From assembly GCF_014696435.1 (NCBI RefSeq), contig NZ_JACJQG010000017.1:79051-143050 (forward strand): DNA of 64,000 nucleotides, read 5' to 3'. The notes beneath the pieces are model-generated. The model made no database searches. It was not told the DNA's origin and was given only the letters and a program-made list of their open reading frames with translations. Shown here piece after piece: positions 7,554-52,150 of this stretch. How positions within the stretch are numbered: position 1 is the stretch's first letter; every line of letters starts with the position of its first letter. The translations under genes and the position numbers were made by a program. The DNA is from Calothrix anomala FACHB-343 (lineage in GTDB: Bacteria; Cyanobacteriota; Cyanobacteriia; Cyanobacteriales; Nostocaceae).

Positions 7554-8128
7554 TATCAAATTTGTAATTCTTCATTTGAATGCCAGGAAAAATAAAATAC
7601 ATTTTTGTAGGGGTTTAGCATTGCTAAACCCCTAATTTCATCCAACTATAATTCATGATTTAAGCTAAACCACATCTATTTTGCATAATCTGAAATTGTA
7701 GATTTCTTGTGGGCGGGCGAGACGCCCACCCAATATATGCAAGTTAAATGTGGAATAACCTTATACCCATTTAATATGAAGTTGCATATATCTAGATCCC
7801 CCTAAATCCCCCTTAAAAAGGGGAGGCAGTGCGTTGGGCGGGTTTCCCGACTTGAAGCAACTGCCGTGGACTTTGATTCTATTTCCCCCCTTTTTCAAGG
7901 GGGGCTAGGGGGGATCGAATTCTATGCAGCTTCATAAAAAATTGGTATTAATACCAATTTAAATAATGTTGGCGACACATCAATCTATTCTATAGGGCAT
8001 GGCATTGCCATGCCCCTACCATCTATCGCATTCTTTTTTCAACTAGGTATAATTAAACAAAAGCCCTAAATAAATCCTAATGACAAATGACCAATGACCA
8101 ATGACCAATGACTATTGACAAATGACAA
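7554..8128. other. Spacer with element and heptamer array
   Basis: Contains GGGTTTAGCATTGCTAAACCC (7611-7631), a GGGCGGGCGAGACGCCCACCC unit (about 7710-7731) shared with the core of the element at 3343, an inverted-repeat element (7775-7936), GGCATGGCATTGCCATGCC (about 7998-8017) and a heptamer array ending at the next gene's ATG. No gene seen. Confidence 0.75.
7775..7936. mobile_element. MITE-like element with about 50-bp inverted ends
   Basis: Left end TATGAAGTTGCATA continues into TAGATCCCCCTAAATCCCCC; the right end, read on the other strand, is TATGAAGCTGCATA and CGATCCCCCCTAGCCCCCC. The arms match over about 50 bp with several mismatches. The interior module GACTTGAAGCAACTGCCGT recurs, reversed and slightly changed, at 63973-64000. 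No coding capacity. Confidence 0.65.
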
Positions 8129-8731: not shown

Positions 8732-9060
8732 AGTTTGATAATTTTACTTAACAAATGGAACTGATAACCAAGTACAAAGTCATACTGAGATAAAGATATG
8801 CTTTATCAATTACCTAGTTAAGACAGCGAATTGCAAGTTGATGAGGTAGAGATAATCATTGATTGTAGGGGCATTGGCACTGCCATGCCCTGAAGCGCGT
8901 ACCTAATTTACCTGAAATATCCTGTAGGTAAGTTGATTAAAATAAACCAAACTCTGTTACAAAAGGTAAACAGGCTGGAAACCCTTACCAATGACTAATG
9001 ACTAATGACTAATGACAGCCCTTTCCAACTATCTTTAATTACACCACTCTACTTATTAAT
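8732..9060. other. Spacer with a two-module repeat
   Basis: Module 1 (about 8829-8915, TTGTAGGGGCATTGGCACTG and CGAAGCGCG-like tail) and module 2 (8946-9052, arm-heptamer-arm cassette). The same two modules lie next to each other, reversed, at 49502-49815. No gene seen. Confidence 0.75.
8946..9052 (+). repeat. Arm-heptamer-arm cassette, copy A
   Basis: Left arm ACCAAACTCTGTTAC...GGTAAACAGGCTGGAAA, core of ATGACTA heptamers, right arm GACAGCCCTTTCC...AATTACACCACTCTAC. The arms match the copies at 49502 and 51803, and the right arm also matches those at 20759 and 40031. Confidence 0.8.
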
Positions 9061-10326
9061 ATGAAACTTAAATCTATTCCAACTGCGATCGCATTATCTC
9101 TGATCAGCATTGGAATTTCCCATATAGCTTATACTCAAACTCCCACCGCCCAACAAGCACGATTAAATCAAGAAGTAGCACAACTCCGCCCACAGGGGCC
9201 TAGTGGTTTAGAAAAATTTTTAAATAATCATGCTTCACAACTCAAAAACCCTAACCCAGAAATACGCCAAGCATTAGATAAACTTTGTCAACAGCGAGAC
9301 TGCTACGCTTCTAAACTTTATTGGTACACCGATATAGAACAAGCTAAAGCTGCGGCTAAAGCTAGTAATAAACCCATTCTTTCATTACGTTTATTAGGAA
9401 ATCTCGATCAAGATTTAAGTTGTGCTAACAGTCGCTTTTTCCGCGTAGCTTTATATCCCAATGCCGAAATTTCTCAATTCCTGCGCGATCGCTATATACT
9501 ACACTGGGAATCTGTACGCCCAGTACCAAAAGTTACCGTAGATTTTGGCGATGGACGCAAACTAGAACGCACCCTCACAGGTAACAGCATTCACTATATT
9601 TTAGACAGTTCCGGCGTACCTATAGATGCTATTCCCGGTTTATACGGGCCGCAAGCCTTTTTACGTCAGCTAGTAGCTGGAGAAAAAGCAGTCAAAGAAT
9701 ATAATAAATCCCAAGGTATCGCCCGCTACAACTTTTTACGCGATTACCACCGCCAACAATTAGCATCAATTCAACGTCAATGGCTTGCAGATTTAGCCAA
9801 TCTTGGCATCAAAAACCCACCCCGTCTAGTAGAATTTACACCCAACAATAACGAAGCACCTAGCGCCAGCGTCGCAGGTACAATTGCTGTCAGCAAAATG
9901 CGCGTAGAATCACCGATACTGCGCAACATCAACGCAGCCAATAACAATCAAAAAGCCCTAAGAGAAATTACTGACGCAGCCACATGGGAAAAAATAGCCC
10001 AACGCTACGCAGCAGATGCCAAATTAGATAATAATAGTGTGGCATTAATTCAGACTAAGCGCTTTCAAGACAGCAAAAGCGATAATTTACAGCGCGTTGT
10101 CAGCAATTTTCAAGCAGCAATGGCATTAGATACGGTGAGAAATGAGTATACTTTGCACAGCCAAATTCACCAGTGGTTTATGCAAGAAAACGCCACAAAT
10201 AATGTCAAAGCATTGAATGATAAAGTTTACAGCGAATTATTTCTCACCCCTAATGCTGACCCGTGGCTAGGGTTAATGAGTAGTGAAAGCTACAGCGCTA
10301 TTGATAATGATGGCATTAGAAAATAA
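9061..10326 (+). CDS. Secreted thioredoxin-fold-like protein
   Basis: 421 residues. A signal peptide is visible (MKLKSIPTAIALSLISIGIS, cleavage probably near residue 25). Residues about 85-210 resemble the Thioredoxin_7/DUF255-type fold: YTDIEQAKAAAKASNKPIL is the usual first strand and helix, followed by a Cys (121) and FLRDRYILHWESVRPV. The redox CxxC is absent; Cys76, Cys81 and Cys121 are the only candidates nearby, so it may not be an oxidoreductase. Residues 215-421 are mainly helical and unassigned. The gene is alone between a repeat cassette and a convergent HhH gene. Periplasmic location and folding or binding role are inference. Confidence 0.75.
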   Translation: MKLKSIPTAIALSLISIGISHIAYTQTPTAQQARLNQEVAQLRPQGPSGLEKFLNNHASQLKNPNPEIRQALDKLCQQRDCYASKLYWYTDIEQAKAAAKASNKPILSLRLLGNLDQDLSCANSRFFRVALYPNAEISQFLRDRYILHWESVRPVPKVTVDFGDGRKLERTLTGNSIHYILDSSGVPIDAIPGLYGPQAFLRQLVAGEKAVKEYNKSQGIARYNFLRDYHRQQLASIQRQWLADLANLGIKNPPRLVEFTPNNNEAPSASVAGTIAVSKMRVESPILRNINAANNNQKALREITDAATWEKIAQRYAADAKLDNNSVALIQTKRFQDSKSDNLQRVVSNFQAAMALDTVRNEYTLHSQIHQWFMQENATNNVKALNDKVYSELFLTPNADPWLGLMSSESYSAIDNDGIRK

Positions 10327-20647: not shown

Positions 20648-20956
20648 AATTACTAGTTTTGGACAACGGGTATTTTTGAAATGTTCGATACCACGATAGC
20701 TTTAACTAGTCTAAAATTTAACTTTTCTTGTGACAAAAATTGCGATCGCTACAGATAAGTAGGTTGGTGTAATGAAAATATTGGCAAGGGCTGTCATTTG
20801 TCATTAGTCATTGGTCATTTGTCAGTTTTTGCATCTTGGTTGAAACTGGGATGAACAAATATCCTAATGTAGGACAATTGTATTAATTTTCCGTCATGAT
20901 AGAGTTGTTGACTATATTAAATTGTTAAGTCTGCATCTCCAGCCGAAAATTCTCTA
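20648..20956. other. Divergent promoter region with repeat cassette
   Basis: Carries arm-heptamer cassette copy B (20759-20830) and otherwise AT-rich sequence. It must contain the promoters of the PGBD-HEAT gene and the helicase, but no clear boxes were identified. Confidence 0.6.
20759..20850 (-). repeat. Arm-heptamer-arm cassette, copy B
   Basis: GTAGGTTGGTGTAAT...TTGGCAAGGGCTGTC followed by TCATTTG/TCATTAG heptamers. The outer arm (TTGGTTGAAACTGGG) is diverged from the other copies. Confidence 0.7.
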
Positions 20957-25454: not shown

Positions 25455-25512
25455 CATCGGTCATTAGTTATTAGTCATTAGTCATTAGTCATTAGTCATT
25501 GGTCATTTGTAT
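25455..25512. repeat. Heptamer array (GTCATTA)n
   Basis: Seven units of GTCATTA/GTCATTG/GTCATTT between cobU and the Cys-cluster gene. Confidence 0.9.
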
Positions 25513-29388: not shown

Positions 29389-29485
29389 GGGACAAGGAAG
29401 ACAAGGAGGACAAGGAAGACAAGGAGGACAAATGACAAATGACAAATGACAAATGACAAATGACAAATGACAAATACCCAATGCC
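29389..29485. repeat. 9-bp then 7-bp repeat array
   Basis: About five GGACAAGGA-type 9-bp units followed by six ATGACAA units and CCAATGC units. The array bridges the two genes and supplies ATGs for the downstream one. Confidence 0.9.
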
Positions 29486-37689: not shown

Positions 37690-37980
37690 CCTTGATTTTC
37701 AGTGTTTGTCTTGGGCTTTCATCCCTTCACTTACTCATAGGTTGACCGAGAGAAGTTTATGCACCCCTTGGGGAAATTTTTTTGTAAATCCTGGGGAAGG
37801 GAAAGGGGGACAAGCAGGACAAGGGAGACAAGGGGGACAAGGAGGACAAGGGGGACAAGCAGGAAAAACAAATTACCAATGCCCAATGCCCAATGCCCAA
37901 TGCCCAATGCCCAATGAATAATGACTATTGACCAAAAATTGGGATAAATAAGTGAATCGTCTTGAGGTTTTTACCAAACT
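37690..37980. repeat. 9-bp and 7-bp repeat arrays
   Basis: About seven GGGGACAAG/GGAGACAAG units (37797-37860) followed by five CCCAATG heptamers (37877-37917). Same unit as found in frame in the helicase gene. Confidence 0.9.
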
Positions 37981-40030: not shown

Positions 40031-40115
40031 CAAATGAAAAATGACTAATGACAAATGACTAATGACAAATGACTAATGACAGCCCTCATCAATTATCTTG
40101 AATCGCACCACCATA
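40031..40115 (+). repeat. Arm-heptamer cassette, copy C
   Basis: ATGACTA/ATGACAA heptamers followed by the right arm GACAGCCCTCATCAATTATC...CGCACCACCAT. Left arm missing or diverged. It separates the two lytic-enzyme genes. Confidence 0.75.
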
Positions 40116-40116
40116 T

Positions 40117-41055
40117 TTAAAGTAATTTCTGCCAAGAAGCAGGTCCGATAATTCCATCAGCAACTAAGCCATTTTGCTTTTGAAAGTTTTTAACTACCGC
40201 TTCTGTTTGCGGCCCGTAAATACCATCAACTTCAACACCTAAACGATATTGGATGTAGCGAATTACCGGCCCGCCAGCATGATTTGGACGAATAATTCTG
40301 CGTGCTAAAATTAAATTGATGGCATCCCAGGTAGCTTTGTTAGCAGTTCCTGTTTCGGCAATATCAATGATTTTTTGAAATTTGGTAACAGCAGAACTTG
40401 TAGCACTTCCTGCTACCCCATCTTCTACTAAAGGTTTACCATTTCTATCGGTAATTTTTAGTTGGTTCAAGGCTTTTTGTAGACGTAGAACTGTGACATC
40501 TACATTCAGTTCTTCATCGGGTACGGGGTTTACAGCTGTAGTTGGTAATTTACCAGTCAAGCCTTTAACAATTGCATTCGCTAGAGCTTCTGGCTCATAA
40601 AGATTCATATCTTTTTGTGAATCGATAAAGCAGCACTCTACAAGAATTGCAGGCATATTTGTATTTCTCAATACATATAAATGAGAGCCACTTTTAACAT
40701 TACGATTAAAATAGCCTAATTTGACAATTTCATCTAATACTGGTTTCGCAATTCTGCGACTTGTTTCGCTACCTGCAAATACTTCTGTGCCGTTGGCTTG
40801 CCCGTTAAAAGCATTAAAATGAATTGAGACGAACACATCAACTTTATTGGCATTTGCTATATCACATCTTCTAGCAAGTGATTCACCGACTCTGCTAGCT
40901 CTCTGTGGTCTACATGGTATGACTTGATGCCCTAAAGCTTGTAACTTAGATATAACTCTATTGCCGACATCTAAGGTTAAATTATCTTCAAATCTAATGC
41001 CTCTTGCTCCAGTATCAGGGGGGCAATTATGTCCAATATCAATGCCAAATTTCAT
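40117..41055 (-). CDS. N-acetylmuramoyl-L-alanine amidase with two PG-binding domains
   Basis: 312 residues. Amidase_3 zinc site: His9 in GIDIGHN, Glu23, His79 in VFVSIHFNAF, and catalytic Glu140 in ILVECCFID. It cuts the bond between muramic acid and L-Ala. Two PG_binding_1 domains follow (about 182-245 and 256-312; DGIYGPQTEAVVKNFQKQN). No signal peptide, unlike the periplasmic AmiC-type amidases of cyanobacteria, so it resembles phage endolysins or spore-type enzymes. Strong GGAGGAGATAAAA ribosome binding site before ATG 41055. The M15-like gene follows on the same strand across a repeat cassette. Confidence 0.9.
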   Translation of the reverse strand: MKFGIDIGHNCPPDTGARGIRFEDNLTLDVGNRVISKLQALGHQVIPCRPQRASRVGESLARRCDIANANKVDVFVSIHFNAFNGQANGTEVFAGSETSRRIAKPVLDEIVKLGYFNRNVKSGSHLYVLRNTNMPAILVECCFIDSQKDMNLYEPEALANAIVKGLTGKLPTTAVNPVPDEELNVDVTVLRLQKALNQLKITDRNGKPLVEDGVAGSATSSAVTKFQKIIDIAETGTANKATWDAINLILARRIIRPNHAGGPVIRYIQYRLGVEVDGIYGPQTEAVVKNFQKQNGLVADGIIGPASWQKLL

Positions 41056-48260: not shown

Positions 48261-49505
48261 TTGTTGCCATTGAAGATTGTTGTTATTGGGGGTGGGGCTG
48301 CGGGATTTTTTGGTGCGATCGCTTGTGCTCAAGTTAATCCTCATGCTCAAGTTACTTTAATTGAAGCTAGCCGCCAACCACTAGCGAAAGTACGGATTTC
48401 TGGCGGTGGACGCTGTAATGTGACTCATGCTTGTTTTGAAGCTCAAAGATTAGTGCAAAACTACCCTAGAGGTGGAAAAGCACTGTTAGGCGCTTTCACT
48501 CGCTTTCAAGCTCAAGATACTATAGCTTGGTTTGCCGCTCGGGGAGTCCAGCTAAAAACCGAAGCTGACGGCAGGATGTTTCCCATCACTGATAGTTCGG
48601 AAACGATAGTTGACTGTTTAATGAATGCGGCGCAAGCATCTGGGGTAGAACTGCTTATAGGTACAGCTGTAGTTAAAGTCCAACGCCAAACCGAGACAGC
48701 AGGGTTTGAGATTGTGCTGAAATCAAAAGAGGTGTTAAAGTGCGATCGCATTTTACTCGCCACAGGTAGCAGCATCGCAGGTCATAAAATTGCCCAAGAT
48801 TTAGGGCATAAAATTGAACCACCCGTACCCTCTTTGTTTACCTTTAATATTCCCGATCCTCAGTTGCGGGGATTAGCTGGGATTAGTGTCAACCCTGTCA
48901 AGTTACGGTTATTAACTAATAGTAAACCGCCACTAGAACAAACAGGAGCATTATTAATTACCCATTGGGGTTTAAGTGGCCCTGCTGTTCTCAAACTTTC
49001 CGCTTGGGGGGCGCGAGTTTTACATCAAAACCACTACAAAACTAAATTATTAATTAATTGGCTAGCGGAATTCCCGCAAGAAGAAGTCAGGCAAAAAATC
49101 CTCGCAGTGAAGACTGAATGGGGAAAGCGACCGATTATGCTACATCGAGGTGTAGACTTACCTCATCGCCTCTGGCAATACATTCTCACCCGTGTGGGAA
49201 TTACCCCAGAGGATCGTTGGGCAGAATTGCCTAATAAAATGCTCAATAAATTAGTAGCAGAACTAACTCAAGGAGAATACACAATTACAGGTAAAGGCGT
49301 TTTCAAAGAAGAGTTTGTTACCTGTGGCGGTGTCAATCTCAAAGAAGTCAACTTTAAAACGATGGAAAGTAAGTTAGTTCCTGGTTTGTACTTTGCTGGC
49401 GAAGTCTTAGATATTGATGGTGTGACTGGTGGATTTAACTTCCAGAGTGCTTGGACTACCGCCTATTTAGCTGGTAGCGCTATGGGAATTACGTCGAGTA
49501 AGTAG
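48261..49505 (+). CDS. HI0933-family (YhiN-like) flavoprotein
   Basis: 414 residues. The FAD site KIVVIGGGAAGFFGAIACAQ lies at the N-terminus, followed by ISGGGRCNVTHA, the family signature, and at the C-terminus a second FAD contact, GLYFAGEVLDIDGVTGGFNF. Predicted NAD(P)/FAD-dependent oxidoreductase of unknown substrate. The start is a TTG, at 48261; TTG codons are repeated here and no ATG precedes the Rossmann motif, so the exact start is uncertain by a few codons. Monocistronic. Confidence 0.93.
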   Translation: MLPLKIVVIGGGAAGFFGAIACAQVNPHAQVTLIEASRQPLAKVRISGGGRCNVTHACFEAQRLVQNYPRGGKALLGAFTRFQAQDTIAWFAARGVQLKTEADGRMFPITDSSETIVDCLMNAAQASGVELLIGTAVVKVQRQTETAGFEIVLKSKEVLKCDRILLATGSSIAGHKIAQDLGHKIEPPVPSLFTFNIPDPQLRGLAGISVNPVKLRLLTNSKPPLEQTGALLITHWGLSGPAVLKLSAWGARVLHQNHYKTKLLINWLAEFPQEEVRQKILAVKTEWGKRPIMLHRGVDLPHRLWQYILTRVGITPEDRWAELPNKMLNKLVAELTQGEYTITGKGVFKEEFVTCGGVNLKEVNFKTMESKLVPGLYFAGEVLDIDGVTGGFNFQSAWTTAYLAGSAMGITSSK

Positions 49506-49620
49506 GGTGGCGAAATGAAAATACTACCAAGGGCTGTCATTAGTCATTAGTCATTAGTCATTAGTCATTGGTCATTGGTCAGGATTTCCAGCCTATTTAC
49601 GTTTCGTAATATAGTTTGGT
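49502..49620 (-). repeat. Arm-heptamer-arm cassette, copy D
   Basis: GTAGGGTGGCGAAATGAAAA...CCAAGGGCTGTC, then TCATTAG/TCATTGG heptamers, then GATTTCCAGCCTATTTACGT, TTCGTAATATAGTTTGGT. It overlaps the last codons of the flavoprotein gene. The second module, TTGGCACTG-type, follows at 49738-49815, as at 8829. Confidence 0.85.
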
Positions 49621-51751: not shown

Positions 51752-51800
51752 ACAGCATTCTTATCCCTAATTTCCACAGGATAGGAATGCTGTTGTTAAT
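51752..51800 (+). terminator. Hairpin terminator after HTH gene
   Basis: ACAGCATTCTTATCC and GGATAGGAATGCTGT form a 15-bp stem with one G-T pair and a 12-nt loop, followed by TGTTAATTA. Confidence 0.7.
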
Positions 51801-51802
51801 TA

Positions 51803-51907
51803 GTAGGTTGGTGTAATTAAATATAGCTGGCAAGGGCTGTCATTTGTCATTAGTCATTTGTCATTGGCAAGAGTTTCAAGTCTATTTACGTTTCGTAATA
51901 TAGTTTT
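51803..51907 (-). repeat. Arm-heptamer-arm cassette, copy E
   Basis: GTAGGTTGGTGTAAT...CTGGCAAGGGCTGTC, then TCATTTG/TCATTAG heptamers (four), then TTTCAAGTCTATTTACG, TTTCGTAATATAGTTTTG. Both arms match copies A and D. Confidence 0.85.
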
Positions 51908-52150
51908 GTTTATTTATAGCCACTTACTTATTTGCTTATTTGAATATTTATGCCTGATAGCACATAATTAATTTGCTGGTGAATTTTCTAGTAATTATTT
52001 AATAATGATTAGTAGGACAATTTTAGGCGATCGCCTGAATATTTCTCAGCAAAACATTAAAGCGATCGCCCATTCAGCACCGAATAAAGGCTTATTAAAA
52101 GGTATTTGGTGGGATTTTTAGCTAAATAAACTCCAAAATTCCCCAATAAT
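51908..52150. other. Spacer downstream of hemA
   Basis: AT-rich with two HIP1 sites; no further gene or repeat recognised. Confidence 0.5.

Follow-up and report, generated by a model that had tools for sequence, protein, structure and literature searches.

Arm-heptamer-arm cassettes of Calothrix anomala FACHB-343 as probable IS630-derived MITEs that carry a variable 7-bp array

Among the systems close to the family reported here are the STRR heptanucleotide repeats of heterocystous cyanobacteria, described as bare arrays, and the BOX element, whose boxB unit is tens of bp long. We know of no accepted mechanism for the abundance of heptamer arrays in heterocystous cyanobacteria. Regarding TAACTGA heptamers, which occur also in cyanobacteria, the remark made on a possible horizontal spread is that "no mechanism is evident" (PMC4679880). 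As for mobile elements, the literature already contains MITEs with a tandem core, namely BOX and BrickBuilt, which are the nearest precedents, and cyanobacterial MITEs, Nezha among them. RUP of Streptococcus pneumoniae is, like the element below, a small MITE with IS630-like ends; it is presented as a simple 107-bp unit and described without a tandem array (PMC3049150).

The window, that is, the whole stretch of 64,000 nucleotides that was analyzed, corresponds to C54:79051-143050 of the genome of Calothrix anomala FACHB-343 (9.24 Mb, 144 contigs; G000 hereafter). In an earlier note, five cassettes made of an arm, an array of heptamers and a second arm had been described at 8946, 20759, 40031, 49502 and 51803, with both arms conserved in three of them, units that differ in number and type, and an orientation that changes from copy to copy. 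All five are real and belong to one dispersed family, and their borders were redrawn as follows (window coordinates):

8925..9055, plus strand: full copy of the MITE; body 8927-9053 (127 bp), TA at 8925-8926 and 9054-9055.
8990..9016, plus strand: heptamer core of the 8925 copy; four units AATGACT/A, found by TRF.
9061..10326, plus strand: neighboring ORF of 421 aa; its ATG lies 5 nt past the right TA of the 8925 copy.
20756..20829 (end approximate), minus strand: truncated copy, array and right arm; TRF array at 20792-20824.
40031..40119, plus strand: truncated copy, array and right arm; array at 40031-40081.
49499..about 49634, minus strand: two-armed copy; array at 49536-49581, left tip diverged and left border approximate.
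51800..51930, minus strand: full copy of the MITE; body 51802-51928, array at 51838-51865.

The varying orientation (plus for 8946 and 40031, minus for 20759, 49502 and 51803) and the differences in unit number and unit type among the five copies were confirmed, as were the three copies with both arms (8925-9055, 49499-~49634 and 51800-51930); the other two consist of array and right arm only, and the left arm of the 20756 copy is missing in the window and in G001, the genome taken as that of the sister species C. brevissima NIES-22, alike. The two full copies measure ~127 bp between the TA dinucleotides, more than first proposed; in the 51800 copy, one flank is TA (51929-51930) and the other AA (51800-51801).

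Regarding the size of the family, a BLAST search with a 201-bp query (window:8900-9100) against its own genome gave at least 41 matches, with E values from 9.9e-101 (the query itself) to 3.5e-15; it scored 40 of 455 first-look candidates, and the true number of matches is probably higher. The pattern AATGACNAATGACNAATGAC had 925 matches in the genome (514+411), overlapping matches inside one array being counted separately, against 0 for the reversed control; chance does not come near such figures. Among the matches listed, copies occur in G001, G002, G003, G004, G006 and G008, all genomes of the same genus; a strict pattern scan of genome contigs, too stringent to yield a distribution, found five loci (two in Moritella, one in a Nostoc MAG, two in Calothrix).

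The common plan of the copies starts with a left arm, TA-AGTAAGTCGGTGGAAATAAACCAAACTATRTTACGAAACGTAAAtaGGCTTGAAACCCTTACC, followed by [AATGACN]n and by a right arm, GCCCTTGCCAGTTATATTTAATTGCACCGMCCTACT-TA; the left arm is ~66 bp long, of which ~46 bp match the end of an IS, and the right arm is ~39 bp. The terminal inverted repeats (TIRs) are AGTAAGTCGGTG / AGTAGGTCGGTG, and the frame NTA/AGTAAG...CTACT/TAN recurs among the 46 two-armed copies listed, with some exceptions (right flanks GA or AA, and diverged left ends). In 377 kb, made of four G000 contigs (C54, C94, C89 and C69) picked for holding copies, the exact TIR pattern matched six times and the reversed control not once; when one mismatch was allowed, the genome gave 137 matches and the reversed control 36, so that single weak TIR matches can be due to chance. 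The element is short (~130 bp), present in many copies and dispersed, as MITEs are, and the longest stop-free runs in three of the window copies span 23, 26 and 41 codons, which leaves no transposase gene.

Insertion of the whole unit can be read from two empty sites. The copy at G001 C1:124844-124974 is missing at G000 C89:9341, and exactly one TA is duplicated: the empty sequence is TTG-TA-TATAAATT, the occupied one TTG-TA-[element]-TA-TATAAATT. At the second site, G001 lacks the copy that G000 has at C54:39048, and the duplicated bases (2-3 bp) are AA or TAA. The left flank of a third locus (C69:71351, L087) is not clean, and the left and right flanks of locus L005 do not adjoin in G001, hence no empty site was found there. 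The TA target is therefore given by one exact empty site and by the TA flanks that recur in the 46-copy listing, with departures at the second site and in some copies. At the empty sites, arms and array are missing together.

The same joint behavior emerges from copies at different places. The copy on C94 has 100% identity, over 131/131 bp, with the copy at G001 C1:124844, and 99% over 132 bp with the one at G001 C1:7871575, the array being included in both alignments; to judge from such near-identical sequences at different loci of two species, the array travels together with the arms.

As for the origin of the ends, the initial 46 bp of the element have matches on plasmids outside this MITE as well. 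In Dolichospermum sp. UHCC 0315A, what matches on the plasmid is the left terminus of a complete 1,176-bp element, which contains two overlapping ORFs, the first with an HTH and the second annotated as IS630 transposase; the Pfam families HTH_32, HTH_23 and HTH_28 were above cut-off in the first ORF, and DDE_3 was found in the second with an E value of 2.4e-27. Elements of the same size and with like ends occur on plasmids of Nostoc cf. commune SO-36 and Trichormus variabilis ATCC 29413, each with one annotated IS630 transposase CDS of 1,055 nt; this length is not a multiple of three, and the CDS is thus presumably read with a frameshift.

The search for an autonomous partner in the same genome was negative: the Dolichospermum transposase had 0 matches at E 0.001 in the 144-contig assembly, and DDE_3 gave four short matches only, three of them at or over the family cut-off. 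One would expect such a partner if the family were active today; mobilization in the past does not call for it. Two long TIR pairs, each 3.2 kb apart, were considered as the autonomous parent and discarded as chance: the pair on C90 encloses, from a reading of the ORFs, an IS200/IS605-like gene pair and its near-TIR falls within an ORF, and the pair on C93 encloses no recognizable transposase. In G001, the closest element with a transposase is located on contig C3, whose coordinates agree with those of NIES-22 plasmid2, and it is interrupted; it is 1,303 bp long with the right ends, and its insert is a 130-bp TIR element without heptamers (L318:955-1084, AP018209.1). So the MITE family moved recently in this lineage, and its present-day driver was not found in this genome.

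The cassette is best read as a non-autonomous MITE derived from IS630, presumably moved in trans and carrying the array as a passenger, to which we give a probability of about 93%. Its inverted ends, its dispersed copies, the exact TA duplication at one empty site, the ends shared with IS630, the array carried along with the arms and the variation by whole units are the observations behind this reading. An IS630-family (Tc1/mariner-like) transposase would recognize the conserved ends AGTARGTCGG, acting in trans, and the MITE would be inserted at TA; the arms would correspond to the transposon ends with their subterminal parts, and the array would have replaced the interior of the IS. The heptamers would then be a passenger tandem repeat, probably devoid of a function, that is passively copied along at transposition and afterward gains or loses whole units locus by locus, most simply via replication slippage or unequal recombination.

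Changes by whole units are visible in the window itself, where the counterparts in G001 of the copies at 8925, 20756, 40031 and 49499 differ by +1, +2, -4 and -2 units, respectively; in these four pairs arms and near flanks are collinear, save substitutions and one 1-bp gap. The fifth copy has no usable orthologue, because synteny with G001 breaks at 51800. The expectation of the earlier note, namely that the number of units varies and the arms stay constant, agrees with all four comparable orthologues and with a set of 50 distinct two-armed sequences from this genome and its relatives, orthologous pairs included, which contain 1-12 units, most often four (21/50). L008, misread by the script, really has four units. 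The left arm is exactly 66 nt long in 34 of these 50 sequences, in which the register of the arrays is partly built in by the construction of the search, and a foreign insert lies within the array of four (L088, L091, L098 and L177). As a separate observation, small repeats of other kinds are inserted in the array or core of the MITE at L025, L088, L091, L098, L103 and L177.

Most of the sampled arrays are armless. The first 100 of the 925 pattern matches (contigs C1-C24), a sample not chosen for copies, reduce to 33 AATGACN arrays of three or more units: within 30 bp, one had both arms, three the right arm only and 29 none. One of the latter (L115) has its left arm 47 bp away, displaced by an inserted repeat, as seen upon rechecking it without the distance rule, and three more (L109, L120 and L123) have weak arm scores of 8-11 bits and are possible remnants, for a total of 25-29 armless arrays out of 33. 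In the window, arms occur at five of the ten arrays of three or more units; two of those lacking them are the following:

25460..25507, minus strand: armless AATGACN array; one unit shorter in G001.
29427..29475, plus strand: armless AATGACN array; four units shorter in G001.

In the 377 kb, arms were found at 8/18 AATGACN arrays, a share biased upward by the choice of contigs, versus 1/84 heptamer arrays with other units (Fisher p 1.6e-6); the association with the arms is genuine and almost confined to AATGACN units. The view of the earlier note that heptamer arrays are the variable heart of a larger element holds for the five window copies and fails as a rule for heptamer arrays. Its proviso, that the association would be local chance if most arrays lacked arms and arms occurred alone, had a mixed outcome: most sampled arrays are indeed armless and arms without arrays exist, and the association stands nonetheless.

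As for arms without arrays, 43 places of the genome have an exact TIR, and some of them represent the two ends of one element; 26 contain at least two standard units in a row and 17 do not. Among these 17, five have units that are single, variant or split (L084, L085, L091, L098 and L103), and six are, in pairs, the ends of three elements whose core is a TAGGGTGTGTT palindrome. The latter architecture, IS630-like ends around a TAGGGTGTGTT...ACACACCCTA palindromic core with no heptamers, is seen at L081/L082, L096/L097 and L172. Another small repeat, a hairpin like TTGTACAGACGCGATTCATCGCGTCTCT, adjoins 5 of the 33 sampled arrays by eye (L066, L068, L106, L109 and L115); at L115 it stands between the array and the left arm.

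The abundance of heptamer arrays, 102 in the 377 kb, together with the large armless share, could suggest that mobility or activity resides in the array and that the arms are merely adjoining sequence. This is extremely improbable and largely refuted by the empty sites, which miss the arms and the array as one piece with TA duplicated at one of them; in addition, the arm-array distance is fixed in most copies (the 66-nt left arm above), the arms match IS630 ends, and they have the preference for AATGACN arrays given above, measured on contigs chosen for copies.

The comparison with G001 also indicates how arrays behave with and without arms. Both flanks were found there for 47 of 102 arrays, and arrays are present on both sides in 40 of these; of the remaining seven, four are without a clear array and three have nothing. 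By script, the unit is the same in 27 of the 40 and different in 13, several of which look like misassignments to a neighboring array. In the 27 same-unit pairs, the lengths are equal or differ by whole units in 16 (seven equal, nine different) and by a value that is not a multiple of seven in 11; four of the nine are the armed copies of the window. In the clean set of 16, length differs in 4/4 armed and 5/12 armless arrays (Fisher p 0.09), and these four and 12 arrays are too few to say whether the arms raise the rate of change. The five armless arrays that differ in length imply that arms are not required for it. Two things thus come together here: a process that acts on 7-bp arrays, and an IS630 MITE with one such array on board.

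Seven and its multiple 14 are by far the commonest periods: of the tandem arrays above a fixed score in the 377 kb, 102 have period 7 and 79 period 14, compared with 11 at period 9, five at 15, two at 12 and one at 6 among the other periods from 4 to 15; at periods 4, 5, 8, 10, 11 and 13 no arrays were found above this score. At window 37876-37916 (C54:116926-116966), the array and its orthologue in G001 have different units in every repeat (CCAATGC against CAACTGA), with place and size nearly alike and flanks otherwise alike, which reads as replacement of the unit in place; at G000 C54:55148-55186, four AAATGAC units face four AAATTAC in G001, at equal length. Of the different-unit loci, only 37876 was checked by alignment, and 41512 and 55148 were read by eye.

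A different unit also occupies the slot in sister MITEs of other Nostocales. These have homologous-looking arms and NYCTGCC-like heptamers in place of the AATGACN of this genus, with 2-5 units, a count taken from eight sequences (L221, L218, L222/L313, which are one locus, L312, L314, L315, L316 and L317). They were found on plasmids of Nostoc sp. PCC 7524, Nostoc sp. MS1, Fremyella/Tolypothrix, Nostoc sp. NIES-3756, Brasilonema, Trichormus variabilis ATCC 29413 and Nostoc sp. C057; in Nostoc sp. MS1, two different loci have four and five units.

The excess of period 7, the unit swaps in near or exact register and the NYCTGCC-like slots support the idea that a process specific for 7 bp rewrites whole arrays in place with another unit, the register being kept and the copy number sometimes kept too, with the MITE as a moving slot; we consider this idea improbable. 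The same picture would arise from ectopic conversion among arrays or from ordinary slippage, in which an array collapses and expands again, and these are more likely.

The sister element in T. variabilis ATCC 29413, with its like arms, has a bearing on novelty as well. The family might coincide with Nezha, a cyanobacterial MITE already published (Zhou et al. 2008), or with a MITE of Anabaena variabilis found by MUST. For Nezha, mobilization by ISNpu3-like elements is proposed (PMC3049150). We regard this identity as possible, if rather doubtful; because it concerns novelty and not mechanism, its likelihood does not compete with that of the other explanations. In the open-licence literature, no description of a heptamer-cored IS630 MITE was found.

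Finally, the positions of the copies relative to genes were considered. The 8925 copy ends 5 nt upstream of the ATG of the 421-aa ORF, and homology with seven relatives (G002-G008) begins at 9057-9058, beside this copy; the TA end of the 40031 copy falls in the stop codon of ORF 40117-41055, on the minus strand, and the right end of the 49499 copy contains the stop codon of the plus-strand ORF 48261-49505. Next to the 8925 copy, high-copy dispersed repeats with many matches in relatives are present at window 8820-8926 and 7949-8052.

Such border positions might be expected of a regulatory or structured-RNA unit, such as a leader, a protein-binding site or an sRNA, in which the number of heptamers tunes the neighboring gene. 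The other data make this very unlikely: the window has no Rfam match at gathering score, 45 aligned left arms have no consensus structure (RNAalifold energy 0), and single-stranded DNA folding of three copies is no better than that of shuffles (z = 1.1, -1.0 and -1.2); moreover, copies are found in both orientations, beside unrelated ORFs, and empty sites exist. The RNA folds of two copies, which pair the ends and leave the array in the loop at -12.6 and -22.0 kcal/mol, were computed with no shuffle control. These DNA and RNA folds also concern the stable fold-back structure that is often listed for MITEs, though not as a strictly defining trait. An RNA role for the cassette is not supported, and a special arm-binding protein or transcript, as sought by the earlier note, is not needed to explain it. 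With the MITE reading, the positions at gene borders would reflect what selection tolerates.

In conclusion, the heptamer-carrying IS630 MITE offers one testable route of spread for part of the arrays, many of which lie outside the element. It also means that when heptamer repeats serve for fingerprinting or counting, transposon copies and bare arrays are pooled. Furthermore, the common origin of the arms and the known empty sites provide insertions in which the change of the array is measurable against that of the arms.

Tandem 7-bp units occur at many loci of this genome, and we take its 7-bp arrays to fit the name STRR and its definition. As in the STRRs of heterocystous cyanobacteria, the units are tandem heptanucleotides, intergenic and present at many loci; unlike in bare STRRs, a subset of the arrays sits inside a transposable element. 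With the 1,176-bp IS630 elements of Nostocales plasmids, the MITE has in common like ends over ~46 bp and TA flanks; it differs in being without a transposase gene, the interior being replaced by the array.

BOX of Streptococcus pneumoniae, boxA-(boxB)n-boxC, shares with the MITE the arrangement of two fixed end modules around variable tandem modules, as well as inverted ends, a target duplication, orthologous insertions of different length and a proposed mobilization in trans (PMC3049150). The ends of BOX are likened to ISSpn2 (PMC3049150), whereas those of the MITE are of the IS630 type; the unit here is 7 bp and the same heptamer is found also in many armless arrays, the two being compared by architecture only. 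BrickBuilt of Porphyromonas gingivalis is likewise a minisatellite in a MITE, with a leader, a tail and small inverted ends; it has a 23-nt unit, 1 to 22.8 units and 19 copies, and its duplications vary in both length and sequence (PMC4596501). The MITE of Calothrix anomala differs from it in its 7-nt unit, in the exact TA duplication at one empty site, in having its parental IS identified and in the existence of a sister family whose slot holds another unit.
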